This document shows positions 29,580-39,888 of a stretch of DNA of 64,000 bases, in pieces (within the stretch, counting starts at the first letter, position 1; each line of letters begins with the position of its first letter). The notes beneath the pieces are model-generated. The model made no database searches. It saw nothing but the letters and a program-made list of their open reading frames with translations, and was not told the origin of the DNA. Source of the DNA: Spirochaetota bacterium (GTDB lineage: Bacteria; Spirochaetota; Brachyspiria; Brachyspirales; JACRPF01). Both the position numbers and the translations under genes were made by a program. The DNA is taken from the NCBI GenBank assembly GCA_016214035.1, contig JACRPF010000006.1, positions 1-64,000 of the forward strand, given 5' to 3'.

Positions 29580-29608
29580 AGCACTATCTTCGAGGCATGG
29601 AGGTTTCC

Positions 29609-30544
29609 ATGAAACTGCATCATCTCTTCATTTTCATCATCGCTGCTCTTTCACTCTCGGCAGCAGCAAGCGTGAGCGATCTGGCCGGACCGGGCGCGGC
29701 AAAAGCCACAGCCGCCAGCGGTCAGAAACGCTGTTCCGACAGGTTCAAGATCACCGCCGTACCCGCGGTATTTGCGAACGCAACAATGATCACCATAGAA
29801 CGCGGCGACAGTGCGCAGAAATCGCCGGGTTTCTCGTTCAAAATCTCGGGCGATGCAACCGTGTATCTCCTCGTCCACGACCGCGGCACGGCAAACGTCC
29901 CGGCCGGCTGGACAAAGACGCCTATGAAAGTTGAATGGACCACCGATGACGGCAGCATGAACCTGACCGATACGGTGTATAAAAAAACATTTCCCGCTGG
30001 ACTGGTGACAATACCGCCGCATGACGGAAGGGATGAAGGCGGCGCCTTCGGTGTTCCCAATGCCGCTGTGGTGACCGCATCCGACGGTACTCCCGCAGCT
30101 GCCGGTGCGACGGATACACCGAAAGGCCCCGTAAGCATCAGCGGACTTCCCGAGAACCTGCAGGCGAAAGTTATGCCGTGTGTCAAAGGCAGCACGCGCC
30201 TCTCTTCAGGCTTTACCCTGGTGACAATTCCCCCGGCACTCGCCAACGGACAACTTGTGGGCATCGTCCGCGGTGAACGCACAGCGGCGGCACCCGCATG
30301 GAAATTCAGCATATCGAAAGCGGCAACCGTATATCTCCTGGTGCATGACCGCGGCACTCCTGCGCTGCCGTCCGGCTGGACACAGACGTCCATGAAAGTG
30401 GAATGGACAACCGGCGACGCCACACTCACCGACACCGTGTATGTCCGCGACTTTTCCGCAGGAACGGTGGATATCCCCGGACACAGCGGCATGGACGGCG
30501 AGACCTACGGCATACCGAACAGCTGCGTCATCGTTTCAAAATAA
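29609..30544 (+). CDS. Exported protein with two tandem beta-sandwich repeats
   Basis: A 311-residue secreted protein with signal peptide LHHLFIFIIAALSLSAAA. It contains two homologous repeats of about 115 residues. Paired segments are VYLLVHDRGTANVPAGWTKT and VYLLVHDRGTPALPSGWTQT, followed in both by MKVEWTT and then VYKKTFPAGLVTIP or VYVRDFSAGTVDIP. The pattern resembles a repeat seen in secreted polysaccharide-associated proteins (VYVAYDSR.. followed by DFPAGTV), so a matrix- or sugar-binding role is possible, but this is inference. GGAGG lies six bases before the ATG at 29609; the ATG at 29597 has none. Confidence 0.75.
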   Translation: MKLHHLFIFIIAALSLSAAASVSDLAGPGAAKATAASGQKRCSDRFKITAVPAVFANATMITIERGDSAQKSPGFSFKISGDATVYLLVHDRGTANVPAGWTKTPMKVEWTTDDGSMNLTDTVYKKTFPAGLVTIPPHDGRDEGGAFGVPNAAVVTASDGTPAAAGATDTPKGPVSISGLPENLQAKVMPCVKGSTRLSSGFTLVTIPPALANGQLVGIVRGERTAAAPAWKFSISKAATVYLLVHDRGTPALPSGWTQTSMKVEWTTGDATLTDTVYVRDFSAGTVDIPGHSGMDGETYGIPNSCVIVSK

Positions 30545-32377: not shown

Positions 32378-32409
32378 ACGACAGAGAACAACATCGTTAC
32401 GGAGTGCAT

Positions 32410-33945
32410 ATGAAACGCCCGAACATCCTGCTCATCACCAGCGACCAGCAGCATTGGAACACGCTCGGCTGCATGAACCCGGAGATACAGACACCGGCGC
32501 TTGACCGCCTCGCGTCGGAAGGTGTGCTCTTCACACGGGCCTACTGCCCCAACCCCACCTGCACGCCCACGCGCGCGTCCATCATCACCGGCCAGTATCC
32601 GAGCCAGCACGGAGCATGGAGTCTCGGCACCAAGCTTCCCGAGACCGCACACACAGTCGGTGAAGACTTTCAGAAAAACGGATACCGCACCGCGCTTATC
32701 GGCAAGGCGCACTTCCAGCAGCTTTTGAACACCGGCGCGTATCCGTCGATCGAGTCCAATCCATTGCAGCAGGACCTTGCGTTCTGGAAGGATTTCACCG
32801 GACCGTTCTACGGATTCGAACACATCGAACTTCTTCGCAATCACACCGACGAGTATCATGCCGGACAGCATTACGGTCTCTGGATGGAGTCGAAAGGGCT
32901 CAAGAACTGGCGCGATTATTTCCAGGTCTTCGGCGAAAAACGGCGGGACAGCCACATCCGGCCGGGCGACAAACCGGGCCGCGGCTCGTGGACACTTCCC
33001 GAGGAATACCATTATAATGCGTTCATAGCCGAACGCACGAACGCGATGATGGATAAATACAAGAAAAACGATGAAAACTTTTTTCTCTGGGCAAGTTTCC
33101 CCGACCCGCATCCGCCGTACATCGTTCCCGAACCATGGGCGTCGATGTACGACCCGAAAAAGATAACAACACCCAGGGTATACTCCGGCGAGCACGATAA
33201 CAATCCGCCGCATCATAAACTTACCCAGACGCCAAAACCCGATTTCAGTCCCTGGCAGGAAAAGGACGGCAACGGAATGCACGGAATGCACTCGCACCTT
33301 CATGATCAGGATAGTCTTGCCCGCGACATCGCGCTTTACTACGGCATGGTGAGCTTCACGGACAAGTACGTGGGTGTCATACTCGACAAACTCGCTTCAC
33401 TCGGCCTTGCCGATAACACCATCGTCGTGTTCACCACCGATCATGGACATTTCTTCGGACATCACGGACTCACCGCGAAGGGTCCGTTCCACTACGAGGA
33501 CATGATAAAGGTCCCGTTCATCACGCGCTATCCGGGACATATTCCAGCGGGAAAGAGAAGCGCAGCGCTGCAGTCGCTGGTTGATCTTCCGGAGACATTT
33601 CTCGACTACACGGATATATCCATTCCGCGGACGATGACCGGCGTGAGCCAGAAAGCGGTCTGGAACGGTGATGCATCTCAGGCACGCGACCATATCATCG
33701 TGGAAAATCATCATCAGCCGACCACGATACACGTCAAGACATACGTCAACGAACGCCATAAACTGACCGTGTATTACAACCAGCCATATGGAGAATTATA
33801 CGATCTTGTAAACGACCCTGACGAAGTGAACAATCTCTGGGACGACGAGACTTCACAGGGATTGAAAAAGGACCTGCTGCTCAACATGCTTCATGCCGAG
33901 ATGGGAAAGGAACCGATGTGGATGCCGCGCGTATACGGGGCATAA
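32410..33945 (+). CDS. Sulfatase (formylglycine-dependent, Cys type)
   Basis: A 511-residue type I sulfatase of the alkaline-phosphatase superfamily; it hydrolyses sulfate esters, probably on a carbohydrate. Seen: PNILLITSDQQHWNTLG with the metal-binding Asp pair, the modification site C-T-P-T-R (residues 51-55) whose Cys is converted to formylglycine, TGQYPSQHG, and the later metal motif VVFTTDHGHFFGHHG. The Cys needs a formylglycine-generating or anaerobic maturation enzyme, not present in this window. No signal peptide is visible, so it may act inside the cell on imported oligosaccharides. CGGAG lies five bases before the ATG at 32410. Confidence 0.93.
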   Translation: MKRPNILLITSDQQHWNTLGCMNPEIQTPALDRLASEGVLFTRAYCPNPTCTPTRASIITGQYPSQHGAWSLGTKLPETAHTVGEDFQKNGYRTALIGKAHFQQLLNTGAYPSIESNPLQQDLAFWKDFTGPFYGFEHIELLRNHTDEYHAGQHYGLWMESKGLKNWRDYFQVFGEKRRDSHIRPGDKPGRGSWTLPEEYHYNAFIAERTNAMMDKYKKNDENFFLWASFPDPHPPYIVPEPWASMYDPKKITTPRVYSGEHDNNPPHHKLTQTPKPDFSPWQEKDGNGMHGMHSHLHDQDSLARDIALYYGMVSFTDKYVGVILDKLASLGLADNTIVVFTTDHGHFFGHHGLTAKGPFHYEDMIKVPFITRYPGHIPAGKRSAALQSLVDLPETFLDYTDISIPRTMTGVSQKAVWNGDASQARDHIIVENHHQPTTIHVKTYVNERHKLTVYYNQPYGELYDLVNDPDEVNNLWDDETSQGLKKDLLLNMLHAEMGKEPMWMPRVYGA

Positions 33946-33997: not shown

Positions 33998-35188
33998 TCA
34001 GCGGTTTTCGCGTATCAGATTCGCGTAATCTTCCAGTGTCGCATATTTTCCGCTGAACAGATCCGGCTCAAATGCCCAGATGATACCGGCCATATCATTC
34101 TCGCGCATGCGCTGGAACGACAATTCCATTGCCGCCCTGTCGCCCCTGCCGGTATTCTCGCCCCAAACGCCGAGCCTGTTGGGATTACGTTTCGCGAACA
34201 TGGAGAGTTGTTTCAGCGGCGACCACGCATTGGGATTATCGGACGCGTCGTTGTAATACGGACTTTTCGCATCGACCCAGGTGCAGTAGACGATGAGATC
34301 CGGGTCACCGACGCCCGCAATAAACCGCTCGAAATCGTGTCCCATCTGCACTTTGCGGTTGCGTTCGGGGATACTCGTTCCGTTCAGATCGGTGGCGACA
34401 GCGCTGTCAAGTTCGCCCCTTGCGAGCGCGCTTGACGGATACAGCATGCAGAGTTTTCCCTTGAAATATTTCCGCGTCGTCATTATCTGCCAGTCATGCC
34501 AGTTCTTCTGCGCGTCGAGATACCAGTTCACGAAAGCGCGCGCCTTCGCATGATCACCCGATGATGTCCCCGGTATCCAGCCCGGCACGGGACACGGCGG
34601 AATACCGTCTGCAAGTCCGGCAGATTTACCCTGCGCGATGTCGTCGAACGCCCAGTAGGTGTTACTCTGTTTTTTAATAGCCGGAGGAAAGTTCAGTTCG
34701 CCGTAGTATCCCCAGCCGAGCCGCACCCATTTGAAATCGGTGCCGAGTTCATCGAAGACCGCCTTGAGCCATAACTCCTCGCGCGCGCGAACCTCCCGGT
34801 TGAACACCGCATTATACGATTCCGCGCCGATCTTTTCGGGAACATAGGCGTCGCCGTACTGATTCACATACCGCGCATGCGCAATTTCACCGAGCCACTT
34901 CGGCGCATACTGAAAACCGAAGTCGAGCATCGGCTCAATGCCGTACTTCCGGAACGCCGCAATTTTCTCTTTCACGGATGCCAGATATGCCTTGTCGATC
35001 TCCCCGCGTTTCGGTTCACCGCGATTCCACCCGACATTGATGACCGCTACAAGCAGCCCCGCCGCAGATGTTTTTGCAGCATTCGATACATCCATCTGAC
35101 ATGCGCCGTACCATCGCGCCGGCTGTTCAGCGGAAACCAGAGACTGCATCATCAACATCCCGAACACTATCGCTATTATCTGCTTCAT
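33998..35188 (-). CDS. Exported glycoside-hydrolase-like TIM-barrel protein (paralogue A)
   Basis: A 396-residue protein with signal peptide (IIAIVFGMLMMQSLVSA). The N-terminal part (INVGWNRGEPKRGEIDKAYLASVKEKIAAFRKYGIEPMLDFGFQYAPKWL) matches the beta-alpha pattern of clan GH-A enzymes such as GH42 galactosidases. Candidate acid/base is Glu164 in LGWGYYGELNFP and candidate nucleophile Glu344 in GVWGENTG. It is homologous to the proteins at 35981 and 38299 but to no family I can name. Last gene of the regulator/GH/SGNH operon, 10 bp after the SGNH gene. The substrate is unknown. Confidence 0.75.
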   Translation of the reverse strand: MKQIIAIVFGMLMMQSLVSAEQPARWYGACQMDVSNAAKTSAAGLLVAVINVGWNRGEPKRGEIDKAYLASVKEKIAAFRKYGIEPMLDFGFQYAPKWLGEIAHARYVNQYGDAYVPEKIGAESYNAVFNREVRAREELWLKAVFDELGTDFKWVRLGWGYYGELNFPPAIKKQSNTYWAFDDIAQGKSAGLADGIPPCPVPGWIPGTSSGDHAKARAFVNWYLDAQKNWHDWQIMTTRKYFKGKLCMLYPSSALARGELDSAVATDLNGTSIPERNRKVQMGHDFERFIAGVGDPDLIVYCTWVDAKSPYYNDASDNPNAWSPLKQLSMFAKRNPNRLGVWGENTGRGDRAAMELSFQRMRENDMAGIIWAFEPDLFSGKYATLEDYANLIRENR

Positions 35189-35198
35189 GGCATATTCC

Positions 35199-35960
35199 TT
35201 AGTGATTCAATAGGCGAAACAAGACCGCCGGATATGTTTCACCGTCGACAGCACCCGCACCTTTCGCCCCGGCGCCGAAGGTAAGACTGTCGCCGAGACA
35301 GACGACGGTATCGCCTTTTTTCACCAATTCCCTGACAACGGCAAAAGCCGATTCCGCCACGGCCCTATATCCCTCCGGTGTGTAATGAACGCCATCGGGC
35401 GCTTTCAGATTCGCCTTGTTCTTGAGAAGGGATGACGCACCCTCGCTCGGTTCGCCGCGGCTGACAAATATCGCGTTGAGATCCACAAGCTTCAGCAATT
35501 GCTCCGCGGCAATCGACTTGATCACGTCATTGTATCGTTTGACCTTGGCGTTGGGCGGATCGTTCTCAAAATATTCCTTTTTATGCCGCGCAAGTACATA
35601 CGACTCGATAACCGGCGTAATGGTCATGAGTACCGGCGTTATTCCCGCGGCACGGGCGCGCGCTATCATCGCGGAAAGATTCTCGCGATACTTTTCCACC
35701 GGCACCGAGTTCATCGAATTGACCGCGTCGTTCATACCAAAGTACAGTACGACTACCGATGGATGAATACCGACAACGTCTTTATCGAACCGCGCGAGTC
35801 CCTGCGTCGTGTTATTGCCGCCGATACCTTTGTTGATGACTTTCACTGAGATCTGTTTTCCTCCGTTTGAAGTCTGATCGTTTGATAGAGCCATCGGTGA
35901 TCCCCCCCGCACTACACTGGTAAAAAGCCCTGTCAATACCATGAACACGATTATCCGCAC
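35199..35960 (-). CDS. SGNH/GDSL hydrolase with circularly permuted blocks
   Basis: A 253-residue exported esterase-like protein. All SGNH blocks are present but in a rotated order. After a signal peptide comes block II (VINKGIGGNNT, residues 41-51), block III (VLYFGMND, about 71-78) and block V (APDGVHYTPEGY with Asp189 and His192). Block I with the nucleophile Ser225 (VVCLGDSLTFGAG) is at the C-terminus, followed by GETYPAVLFRLLNH and the stop. In ordinary members block I is N-terminal and its GETYP..LL segment leads into block II. The GTG start at 35960 has AAGGAGG six bases upstream. It probably removes acyl groups from a glycan handled by the flanking GH-like proteins. Confidence 0.85.
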   Translation of the reverse strand: MRIIVFMVLTGLFTSVVRGGSPMALSNDQTSNGGKQISVKVINKGIGGNNTTQGLARFDKDVVGIHPSVVVLYFGMNDAVNSMNSVPVEKYRENLSAMIARARAAGITPVLMTITPVIESYVLARHKKEYFENDPPNAKVKRYNDVIKSIAAEQLLKLVDLNAIFVSRGEPSEGASSLLKNKANLKAPDGVHYTPEGYRAVAESAFAVVRELVKKGDTVVCLGDSLTFGAGAKGAGAVDGETYPAVLFRLLNH

Positions 35961-35980: not shown

Positions 35981-37222
35981 CTATCGCTGTTCCGCGATGT
36001 GCCGTTTATAATCTTCGATGGTAGCGTACCGGCGATCCTTGTCGTGAAGCTGAAAATCGAACGCCCACATAAAGAATGAAAGGCCGTAAGCACGCACGCG
36101 TTCGAATGATAAACGCATACCCGCTACATCGTCGTTGCCGTCGTTCTCACCGCCTATGCTCAGCGGCGGCCGGTGTCGCGCCGCACACGATGAAATAAAA
36201 TGAATGGGGCTCCATGCGGCGGGGTCGTCTCCCGCGTCGTCCACCATGTTGTTCGTCGCGGGCCACGGAGAATTCGCGTTCACGCAGGTGCCGCAGACGA
36301 TTACCTTGTCATCCTGTATCGACGCTATGAAACGCGCAACATCATAACCCTTATGCGTCTGTTCGTAGCGTTCGGCGAAACTCGATCCGTCAAGATCGTC
36401 CGCCACCGCTTCAGCGATCTGTCCGGGACGAATGCCCCAGTTCGCATACAGCGCGATGAGATACCCGGCATATGACTTTCTGAGCGTGGTAATCTGAAAC
36501 TGCTGATACTGCGCCAGCGAATCAAGATACCATTCGATGAACTGTGCCGCATTCGTATGTCTTCCGCTCGGGGTTCCCGGCAGCCAGCCCGATACAGGAC
36601 ACGTCTTCACACCTGCGGCAAGCCCCGGCGCTTTTCCCTGTGCAATATCGTCAAATCCCCAGTAGCAGTTTTTCTTACCATTATAACCTTTCCATGCGTA
36701 ATGAAGTTCGGAGTAATGTCCCCAGCCGATACGGACTCCGTAGAAGTTCGTACCGAGATCGGAAAAGACACGCGCCGCATACAGCGCCTGAATGTCGCGA
36801 ACCGTCTGATTGAATACACCGTTCACCGCATTTAGCCCCGGCTTGTTCGTGATGACAAACGCATCGCCGTACTGATTGACAAACCGGCTGTGAGGGATAT
36901 CGAATATCCATGCCGGCGGGACATGCATACCGAGGTCGAGGACAACGCGCATGCCGATGTCGGTAAAAACTTTTATCCGCGAGCGGACTTCGTTGACATA
37001 CGCCTCATCAACACGACCTTTCTGCGGCATGTAGCGTCCCCATGAAAGCCCCACGGTTGCCAGCCGCACGCCGGCGCGATAATCCTCAGCGGCCAGTTTC
37101 GTATCGCTTATCAGCGTTCCGTAGAGTATTTCCGTAGCCGACGCATACGACGGCACACACACAAACAAAGCGGTTACAATCACCACCACCGCAAGGCCGT
37201 GTCCACGCAAAGCCGATATCAT
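35981..37222 (-). CDS. Exported glycoside-hydrolase-like TIM-barrel protein (paralogue B)
   Basis: A 413-residue protein with signal peptide (LAVVVIVTALFVCVPSYASA). It aligns along its length with paralogue A: VGLSWGRYMPQKGRVDEAYVNEVRSRI, FVNQYGDAFV, candidate acid/base Glu172 in IGWGHYSELHY, CYWGFDDIAQGKAPGLAAG, and candidate nucleophile Glu359 in LSIGGENDG. Both Glu positions fit clan GH-A spacing. The ATG at 37222 overlaps the stop of the upstream regulator by 4 bp (ATGA), so it is translationally coupled to it. It lies 20 bp before the SGNH gene. Likely an exo- or endo-glycosidase of unknown specificity. Confidence 0.75.
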   Translation of the reverse strand: MISALRGHGLAVVVIVTALFVCVPSYASATEILYGTLISDTKLAAEDYRAGVRLATVGLSWGRYMPQKGRVDEAYVNEVRSRIKVFTDIGMRVVLDLGMHVPPAWIFDIPHSRFVNQYGDAFVITNKPGLNAVNGVFNQTVRDIQALYAARVFSDLGTNFYGVRIGWGHYSELHYAWKGYNGKKNCYWGFDDIAQGKAPGLAAGVKTCPVSGWLPGTPSGRHTNAAQFIEWYLDSLAQYQQFQITTLRKSYAGYLIALYANWGIRPGQIAEAVADDLDGSSFAERYEQTHKGYDVARFIASIQDDKVIVCGTCVNANSPWPATNNMVDDAGDDPAAWSPIHFISSCAARHRPPLSIGGENDGNDDVAGMRLSFERVRAYGLSFFMWAFDFQLHDKDRRYATIEDYKRHIAEQR

Positions 37223-38250
37223 CTCGTTGACTCCCGCGCGATGATACTGCCGGCAACGCGTACCGATTTCACCGTTTTCCCGGCGATAATATCCATAAGC
37301 AGTTGTGCTGCGTTCATACCGAGCGTTTCGGGAAAAATATCCACCGCAGTAAGCGATGGGCTCGTGCAGATTGTTGTCGGGGCATTGTTGCAGCATATCA
37401 CCGCAATGTCATCGGGCACGCGCAGACACGATTCACGGATTGCGGCAATTGCCCCCACGCCGAGATGATCATCACAGGCAATAATAGCGTCGGGTTTGTT
37501 ACGCAGTAGACGTAGTGCATGCTGTTTCCCTTCATCGACGGTGAAGTTGCTGTATGAGACATCAAATGCTCCGTTTATCCCCGCCCGCTCCAGTCCTTTT
37601 CGTACGCCGCGTTCGCGATCCATACTAACCGTCAGATGATTCGGGCCGTTCGCCATGGCAATATTCTTTGCGCCGCGTTCAATACAATATGCGGCCATGC
37701 TTTCTCCGACGGCGACATTATCGTTGTCGGCAAAGACAACGGTATCGTCATCCGGATTCCCGATTACGACGAACGGGATACCGCGTTCACGCAGGAGCGA
37801 AATACGTATGTCGTTCGTGCGCGGATTCTTGAGAATAACACCCTGAACCGTTTCATCGGAACAATATCCCGTTTCATTTTCGTTAAATATCAGACATGTC
37901 GCACTACCGCCGGCAATTACCTTTTTAACACCGCGAACGACATTTGAAAAAAAATAAGCATCCGTTCCGCTGTTCTCATCGCCAATCACGAGACCAATCG
38001 CGATGCGCTTCTCGTGTTTTCCCTCATTAACGAATGTTCCTTTGCCCGGAATGCGCGTGAGAATGCCGTCGCGCACCAGATCACCCACCGCCTGCCGAAC
38101 GGTTATCGTGCTCACGTCATAGGTCCGGCACAGATCGCGTTCCGTCGGTATCTGCCCGTCCTCGGCAAGCTTGCCCGATGCGATTTTTGTACGCAGATCC
38201 TCACGGACTCTTGCGTATAATGTCTTTTCTTTACGCGACGTCTTATTCAT
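37219..38250 (-). CDS. GntR-type winged helix/LacI-type effector regulator
   Basis: A 343-residue regulator built like AraR: an N-terminal GntR winged helix (LYARVREDLRTKIASGKLAEDGQIPTERDLCRTYDVSTITVRQAVGDLVRDGILTRIPGKGTFV) joined to a periplasmic-binding-protein-like sugar-sensing domain (IAIGLVIGDENSGTDAYFFSNVVRGV to the C-terminus, with GVILKNPRTND and PDAIIACDDHLGVGAIAAIRE). It heads an operon with two GH-like genes and the SGNH hydrolase and should repress it until a sugar is present. A 20-bp perfect palindrome covers its -10 box and start codon, which indicates autoregulation. It lacks a ribosome site. Confidence 0.92.
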   Translation of the reverse strand: MNKTSRKEKTLYARVREDLRTKIASGKLAEDGQIPTERDLCRTYDVSTITVRQAVGDLVRDGILTRIPGKGTFVNEGKHEKRIAIGLVIGDENSGTDAYFFSNVVRGVKKVIAGGSATCLIFNENETGYCSDETVQGVILKNPRTNDIRISLLRERGIPFVVIGNPDDDTVVFADNDNVAVGESMAAYCIERGAKNIAMANGPNHLTVSMDRERGVRKGLERAGINGAFDVSYSNFTVDEGKQHALRLLRNKPDAIIACDDHLGVGAIAAIRESCLRVPDDIAVICCNNAPTTICTSPSLTAVDIFPETLGMNAAQLLMDIIAGKTVKSVRVAGSIIARESTR

Positions 38251-38298: not shown

Positions 38299-39888
38299 CT
38301 ATTTTAGTGCGGTATTTGTGCCCGGGGCCGGAATCGGAATATATCCGCTTATCGGCGTCCATGCATCCGCATCCGGTGTGATCCTGAATACCGTGTTGCT
38401 CCCCTCGGGCGGAATCACCACAAGTTTATGCGGTACGCCGTAGGGCGATGCGAGAAGCCCGTTGGTGTGTCCGTAGATGATGTCGGCCGGCTTCCATTCA
38501 CCATCACCAACGCGATATGAGACGGTTATTCCGATTATCTGAAATTGATTTTCCCTCAGCACATATTCGATCATTACATTCGTCGTGGCTGTCCATGATG
38601 CCGTCAGCGAGAACGCTTCACGCGCATTGTTCGACAGTATTTCCCTGAAGCATGCAGTGACCGCGCCGATACCCTCGCGCAACTGCACCATGTTCGTCGT
38701 ATACGGATACGAAAGAGCGGTTATTCTGTTCGTTATGAATTCCTCCGCGACGATACGCGCGTCACCGCCCGCATACACCGCCGCCACCGGAAATCCATAC
38801 GCCCGGATATCGGCGGCTGCGTCGGCAACAACCGCGTTAGCCGATCCGCGGACAGCTCCGTTCGTAAAACAAACAGGCGCTTCAATAACGGCCATCAGCG
38901 CATTGCTTCGGAGAACGGCAAGACAGCGCGACGCCGTTCGTCCGGACTGCATGAGTCCGTTCTGTTCAACAGCACTGCTTCCGCTCAGATTGTTTTTCAT
39001 CGCGCCCGTAATGTCGTTGGCCGTGAGCAGAAATGAAGAAGTGCTGAATGGAACGACAATGCTCCCGCTGAAATATCGCCGTATCACCGTGTATTGCCAG
39101 ACAACCGTATCCGCCAGCATGCCGCTGTACCACTCATGGAAATCACGAGCCTTCACATTATTGCTGCTTGCATTACCCGGAAAAAAGATGACCTCGTCGA
39201 ATGATGAAAGCCTGTCACCCCATGACACGTTCACCGCATCGATATCACCGCCGTATTTCCGTTCCATCGCCTTCATAAAGCCGAGCTTGCCGGAAAAATC
39301 ATACGCCCAATATGAATTCGCATGGCGGTTGTATAACGGACCGGGAAATGACGGCTCGCCATGCACACCTGCGCTCACTGCGACAGATTCAATTACATTG
39401 CTGCATGCACTCAAATCGGCAAACAGATTTGAAATCGTAGAAGCGACCGCAGCGCGGACTTCGTCGTTGAAAACGATATTAACCAGATTGCTGCCGGACG
39501 CCGCGGGTGCCCGATAGACATCACCATATTGATTGATAAACCGCGCATGACGAAGTTCGGCTGCCCATTTCGGCGGATAATGCCACCCGAGCCGCAGTTG
39601 AACACGCATCGAGTTTAAATCCGCACGCATGATATTTGAGATTATCCCGGATATGTAGGCACGGCTGTATTTACCGCGGGCCGGTTCATATCGCTCCCAT
39701 TGTACCGGCATTTCCAGATATGTCAGCCCTGTATTTGCCGGCACGGCCGCATTACTGCTCTCAATGGGCGGGCACTGCATGCCAATCCGGTATCGAAATT
39801 GTTCCTGCTCGCCGGATACTGGCGCCGCCAGACATGCCGCCGCCATGACCAATGCAGCAGAAAACAATAACGCCGCTTTATTTCGCAT
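38299..39888 (-). CDS. Exported glycoside-hydrolase-like protein with C-terminal beta domain (paralogue C)
   Basis: A 529-residue protein with signal peptide (ALLFSAALVMAAACLAAP). Residues about 30-380 align with paralogues A and B (PVQWERYEPARGKYSRAYISGIIS, HARFINQYGDVYRAPAASG, NSYWAYDF). The candidate acid/base Glu178 is kept in GVHGEPSFP, but where A and B have the nucleophile (GEN) this protein reads VYAGGDAR with no Glu. It also carries an extra C-terminal beta-sandwich (about 440-529). It may be a catalytically altered enzyme or a binding protein. Start lies six bases after a TACGAT box with no ribosome site. Its transcript would read into the regulator promoter. Confidence 0.7.
   Translation of the reverse strand: MRNKAALLFSAALVMAAACLAAPVSGEQEQFRYRIGMQCPPIESSNAAVPANTGLTYLEMPVQWERYEPARGKYSRAYISGIISNIMRADLNSMRVQLRLGWHYPPKWAAELRHARFINQYGDVYRAPAASGSNLVNIVFNDEVRAAVASTISNLFADLSACSNVIESVAVSAGVHGEPSFPGPLYNRHANSYWAYDFSGKLGFMKAMERKYGGDIDAVNVSWGDRLSSFDEVIFFPGNASSNNVKARDFHEWYSGMLADTVVWQYTVIRRYFSGSIVVPFSTSSFLLTANDITGAMKNNLSGSSAVEQNGLMQSGRTASRCLAVLRSNALMAVIEAPVCFTNGAVRGSANAVVADAAADIRAYGFPVAAVYAGGDARIVAEEFITNRITALSYPYTTNMVQLREGIGAVTACFREILSNNAREAFSLTASWTATTNVMIEYVLRENQFQIIGITVSYRVGDGEWKPADIIYGHTNGLLASPYGVPHKLVVIPPEGSNTVFRITPDADAWTPISGYIPIPAPGTNTALK

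Follow-up and report, generated by a model that had tools for sequence, protein, structure and literature searches.

SGNH hydrolases form a large superfamily, much used for polysaccharide deacetylation. The superfamily is defined by four conserved blocks that supply Ser, Gly, Asn and His, with an Asp three residues before the His, in the chain order I-II-III-V (S-G-N-H). Permuted relatives with the order H-S-G-N have been described in AlgX, AlgJ and WssI and in PatB1 of the DHHW family, all of them transferases with altered motifs (PMC9487903, PMC4148444, PMC10302187, PMC5697884). Circular permutation itself is thus not new to the superfamily. A preliminary description of the gene reported here knew of no SGNH family with its block order; that statement holds for a cut between blocks I and II, of which we found no description in the open literature on permuted SGNH and GDSL enzymes, while the permuted families named above had already been described with another cut. 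Five further papers considered as precedents (PMC13276840, PMC5408684, PMC6385246, PMC2848206 and PMC3779223) were rejected, as none concerns a permuted SGNH fold.

The window analysed here is a stretch of 64,000 nucleotides from a Spirochaetota genome (contig JACRPF010000006.1). One of its genes encodes an SGNH hydrolase in which GIGGNN, GMND, DGVH and GDSL follow one another along the chain (Table 1), confirming the order II, III, V and C-terminal I first read from the letters and the position of Ser225 C-terminal to Asp189/His192. The order of the key residues is therefore G48, N77, D189/H192 and S225, that is, G-N-H-S. All five residues lie in conserved alignment columns, whereas the canonical order I-II-III-V is absent, the two halves of the profile being swapped. 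The stop codon follows 27 residues past GDSL, and the helix after block I (ETYPAVLFRLLNH) corresponds to the segment that runs on to block II in normal SGNH enzymes.

Table 1. Coordinates, strands and sequence elements of the permuted gene and its neighbours in the window.
Feature	Coordinates	Strand	Remarks
Circularly permuted SGNH hydrolase, complete gene	35199..35960	-	253 aa, GTG start
Candidate signal peptide VRIIVFMVLTGLFTSVVRGG, residues 1-20	35901..35960	-	hydrophobic stretch, by eye
Block II GIGGNNTT, residues 45-52	35805..35828	-	G48 aligns with oxyanion-hole Gly
Block III GMND, residues 75-78	35727..35738	-	oxyanion-hole Asn77
SLLKNKAN, residues 177-184	35409..35432	-	motif private to permuted clade
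Block V DGVH, residues 189-192	35385..35396	-	Asp189, His192
Block I GDSL, residues 223-226	35283..35294	-	nucleophile Ser225, moved to C-terminus
C-terminal helix ETYPAVLFRLLNH after block I, chain end	35202..35240	-	helix 209-218 of predicted 219-residue model
Secreted GH-like protein	35981..37222	-	sub-threshold Cellulase match; paralogue of 33998-35188
Secreted GH-like paralogue	33998..35188	-	no Pfam match
GntR/LacI-type transcription regulator	37219..38250	-	apparent operon head
Sulfatase (PF00884 + SGSH_C)	32404..33945	+	strand opposite to cluster
Secreted protein	38299-39888	-	weak GH14 and GH42 similarity near curated cut-offs

The gene is intact at both ends. An AGGAGG Shine-Dalgarno sequence lies 6 nt upstream of the GTG start, and only 20 nt separate the gene from the one before it, which together indicate that no N-terminal part is absent; the downstream gene begins 10 nt past the stop codon. 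No second block-I motif occurs in any of the six frames over 32.0-39.9 kb. With an intact 5' end and no other block-I motif, nothing has been lost in front or duplicated behind.

The least biased of our rotation tests used an HMM for which 65 normal-order SGNH domains, and no permuted member, served as the training set. Against the native window protein, this HMM gave two swapped matches, to profile positions 43-190 (121.9 bits) and 4-37 (19.7 bits, iE 2e-7); against the rotated protein, it gave a single match to positions 4-189 at 157.9 bits. Three other proteins with the same block order, from the genome G030 and the viral contigs L075 and L082, likewise gave two swapped matches each as native chains and one each when rotated. 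The C-terminal 45 residues of the window protein scored 24.9 bits compared with at most 4.7 for shuffles, and the corresponding tails of all four permuted proteins scored 23-30 bits compared with at most 7.6, counting only shuffles with a reported score (about 900-1,600 per protein). The Pfam profile PF13472 (Lipase_GDSL_2) matched the native window protein at 86 bits from profile position 32-33 to 178, and the rotated protein at 99 bits over positions 1-178; the G030 domain rose from 92 to 105 bits. Searches of PDB sequences with the rotated chain, a check proposed in the preliminary description, extended the acetylxylan esterase and TesA alignments through block I and improved their E-values. 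The earlier claim of a true rotation, not a truncation, duplication or misassembly, is thus supported on two counts: three independent sequences have the same order, and the SGNH profile is matched over its full length once the chain is rotated.

The domain in G030, a genome of another genus in the same family-level group (L007/L035), is 60% identical to the window protein and lies inside a 1151-residue protein that continues into a DUF6259 region. Among about 40 relatives on viral contigs, two share the block order of the window protein. The L075 protein (2010-2705) has 231 aa and 34% identity to the window protein; its start overlaps the end of a gene for an fn3-containing protein, and an Amidase_3 endolysin comes next. 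The L082 protein (L082:1332-2630) has 432 aa and 29% identity, with the SGNH part at its C-terminus, and lies near a tail-protein gene. The window, L075 and L082 proteins all end shortly past the helix that follows block I.

All four proteins fit the proposed G-N-H-S group, having the order II-III-V-I, an SGNH part that ends at the post-block-I helix and the motif S[FL][LI][RK]N..N. This motif precedes block V in each of the four but in none of the 65 normal-order domains, and the catalytic residues are invariant across the four in the alignment. In a tree of 69 rows, comprising the 65 normal-order domains and the four permuted proteins, whose chains were rotated before aligning, the permuted members form one clade with support of 78/89, recovered in 242 of 300 bootstrap trees, and a single change of state accounts for the order. 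Given this clade and its private motif, one permutation event is likely, and the data are read most simply as one such event, after which the gene moved between phage and bacteria, at moderate clade support.

Several features of these proteins were noted in passing. The G030 protein (L035:5178-8717, minus strand) joins a lectin-like N-terminal region (by eye), the permuted SGNH domain and DUF6259 in an unusual three-part architecture. The regions that precede the SGNH part of the G030 and L082 proteins look by eye like jelly-roll lectins, as does the product of the gene before the L075 esterase, with no Pfam confirmation. Both viral esterases sit in tail or lysis neighbourhoods (L075:247-2705, L082:1332-2630). 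The L075 protein (L075:2010-2705) also matches PHROG 13362, a family of function unknown, at profile positions 543-733; since this match runs through block I, PHROG 13362 may hold further permuted members.

Besides 18 segments spanning blocks II-V, the AlphaFold2 alignment for the window protein contained three sequences of the permuted type, so that only three rows cover block I. The resulting model of 219 residues has a pLDDT of 86.6 and a pTM of 0.86, and that of the L075 domain has values of 84.0 and 0.84; both are confidently predicted as single-domain folds. The preliminary description expected the C-terminal segment to supply a core strand and the catalytic Ser, and the predicted model agrees: the GDS strand (residues 184-189 of 219) has a block pLDDT of 96, compared with 93 in L075. 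The last helix of the window model reaches a block pLDDT of 92, whereas the loop right after GDSL falls below 60, and the same contrast between a confident strand and helix and a poorly predicted loop is seen in both models. Five core strands alternate with helices in the models, as expected for the three-layer alpha/beta/alpha SGNH fold with its parallel five-strand sheet. The nearest Foldseek matches to the window model were SGNH entries (E 2.5e-8), carbohydrate or acyl esterases that include Bacteroides GDSL acylhydrolases, a sialate O-acetylesterase, Axe2 and TesA, aligned mostly over about 170 of the 219 residues, as expected with one element out of sequence order. In PDB and BFVD, no target matched the whole chain at high TM-score (best TMq 0.64), and the matches listed included neither a solved structure nor a predicted viral one of equal connectivity.

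The genome that contains the window matches PF13472 at 24 places. Of the other 23, 21 are in normal order and span almost all of the profile, and two cover its first part only (1-107 and 2-150); the match of the permuted gene alone lacks the profile start. When 393 genomes sampled from the same phylum were searched with a junction profile spanning blocks V and I, only the window genome and G030 matched across both blocks. A pattern scan of genome contigs with the window protein returned one distant match, in an Omnitrophota contig (L006), which was rejected as a permuted relative on account of its normal order. In plasmid and phage collections, good matches cover blocks II-V only, and none of the annotated-phage matches aligned credibly across the V-I junction. 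The match in Vibrio phage K389, which reaches query residue 209, was rejected as normal in order. So too, on reading, were three viral-contig matches, two seemingly full length in native order (L133 and L135) and one at the junction (L152), and a short junction match in G366 (L120) does not belong to an SGNH protein. Within the scope of these searches, which took in this phylum, viral contigs and annotated collections of phages and plasmids, the G-N-H-S order is rare.

The permuted gene belongs to an apparent operon with the GntR/LacI-type regulator and lies there between two GH-like paralogues that are 41% identical to each other; the sulfatase, an AraC regulator and the GH14/GH42-like protein are also encoded nearby. 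As one paralogue has no Pfam match and the other only a sub-threshold match to Cellulase, they may represent an uncharacterised glycosidase family. The canonical hydrolase motifs, and the carbohydrate esterases that are its neighbours in fold space, point to a secreted carbohydrate O-acetylesterase as the most likely role, one suggested also by the neighbouring genes and by weak family similarity. Elsewhere in the window, a secreted protein on the plus strand (29597-30544) contains two similar domain copies (SPGFSFKISGDATVYLLVHDRGT and APAWKFSISKAATVYLLVHDRGT) and has no Pfam match.

We read the gene product as a secreted, single-domain SGNH serine esterase, naturally circularly permuted and acting on esters, with a probability of roughly 0.8; its geometry, catalysis, substrate and single origin are what we infer as follows. 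The old N- and C-termini would be joined by a short linker (VKKGD) past the last helix, and the new termini would have opened in the loop between the post-block-I helix and strand 2, which bears block II. Closure of the fold as in normal SGNH enzymes would bring the C-terminal Ser225 to Asp189/His192, the Ser225 amide would form the oxyanion hole together with G48 and N77, and esters would be hydrolysed by the usual acyl-enzyme mechanism of normal SGNH hydrolases. The substrate would most likely be an O-acetylated polysaccharide processed by the neighbouring glycosidase-like proteins, and the order probably has a single origin, possibly through a tandem duplication after which the outer halves were lost.

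Chimeras are possible in a source assembly of 22 contigs, and a rearrangement during assembly or sequencing that scrambled a normal SGNH gene was the artefact of which the preliminary description warned. However, the gene is a single intact ORF with a signal-like peptide and a ribosome-binding site, it fits between operon genes, and the junction is kept at 58-60% identity in another genus and also on two viral contigs, which refutes this explanation to all intents. The alignments of Pfam and NCBIfam from block II onward only are what a serine-less relic would give, in which blocks II-V serve carbohydrate binding and the GDSL-like tail is due to chance. A catalytically dead remnant of this kind is nonetheless highly improbable, given how far the four tails score above their shuffles and that the catalytic residues are invariant in all four members.

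The remaining alternatives accept the permutation and differ in how the protein would work. Short linkers can permit swapping, and the one here is only about 5-9 residues long (VKKGD); the enzyme might thus be active only when two chains form a domain-swapped dimer, the C-terminal block I strand of one completing the active site of its partner. Against this, the monomer models are confident, with the pTM values given above, and the linker connects the normal N- and C-terminal positions, which lie near each other in SGNH folds; we regard an obligate dimer as quite unlikely. An O-acyltransferase resembling AlgX, AlgJ or PatB1 deserves consideration, because those permuted SGNH enzymes whose biochemistry is known from the literature found all transfer O-acetyl groups to polysaccharides (PMC9487903, PMC4148444, PMC10302187). 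Yet the blocks are of the canonical hydrolase type (GDSL, GIGGNN, GMND and DxxH), unlike the GTSYS, DXH and Tyr of AlgX, the nearest relatives are hydrolases, and no acyl-donor membrane protein was seen among the neighbouring genes, which makes transfer in place of hydrolysis unlikely.

A permuted esterase of this kind would extend what is described of the fold. It is probable that G-N-H-S is a third natural SGNH topology, which arose once, passed between phages and environmental bacteria, occurs either by itself or within larger extracellular proteins as one of their modules, and has been missed by automatic annotation, since domain tools report such proteins as GDSL hydrolases that lack the serine. 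Intact enzymes may be present among the proteins annotated as serine-less GDSL relics, and the presence of block I after block V offers a database test. With one natural permutation (H-S-G-N) described in the searched literature, G-N-H-S would be the second cut point, implying that the SGNH fold tolerates opening directly behind the nucleophile strand and helix. The natural series S-G-N-H, H-S-G-N and G-N-H-S suits tests of chain order against folding and catalysis.

Known systems share different parts of this design. The annotated tail-associated SGNH esterases of phages (for example PHROG 6102, 8460 and 14008) are similar in blocks II-V, and the two viral permuted members lie near tail or endolysin genes, but the annotated esterases, unlike the permuted members, give no credible alignment over the V-I junction. 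PatB1 of the DHHW family shares a circularly permuted SGNH core, with the order H-S-G-N and KDS, DXRY and DHHW motifs of its own, and acetylates a secondary cell wall polysaccharide (PMC9487903). AlgX, AlgJ and WssI are also natural permutations of the SGNH core and retain its triad geometry (PMC4148444, PMC10302187), but they are cut between blocks III and V, with the order V-I-II-III. Their own features are GTSYS, DXH, Tyr or Asp in place of Asn, an extra cap and antiparallel strands, and they are alginate or cellulose O-acetyltransferases. The window protein has neither the H-S-G-N order nor the altered motifs of these families (GTSYS or KDS; DXH or DHHW; Tyr or another residue for the block III Asn; compare PMC9487903 and PMC4148444), but GDSL, DGVH and GMND in the order G-N-H-S. 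The canonical SGNH enzymes (PF13472; TesA, Axe2, and the Bacteroides sialate and GDSL-like acylhydrolases) have the fold that is predicted for the window protein and the same blocks and residues, and differ from it in chain order: theirs runs I-II-III-V, whereas the window protein runs II-III-V-I, with its termini between blocks I and II.
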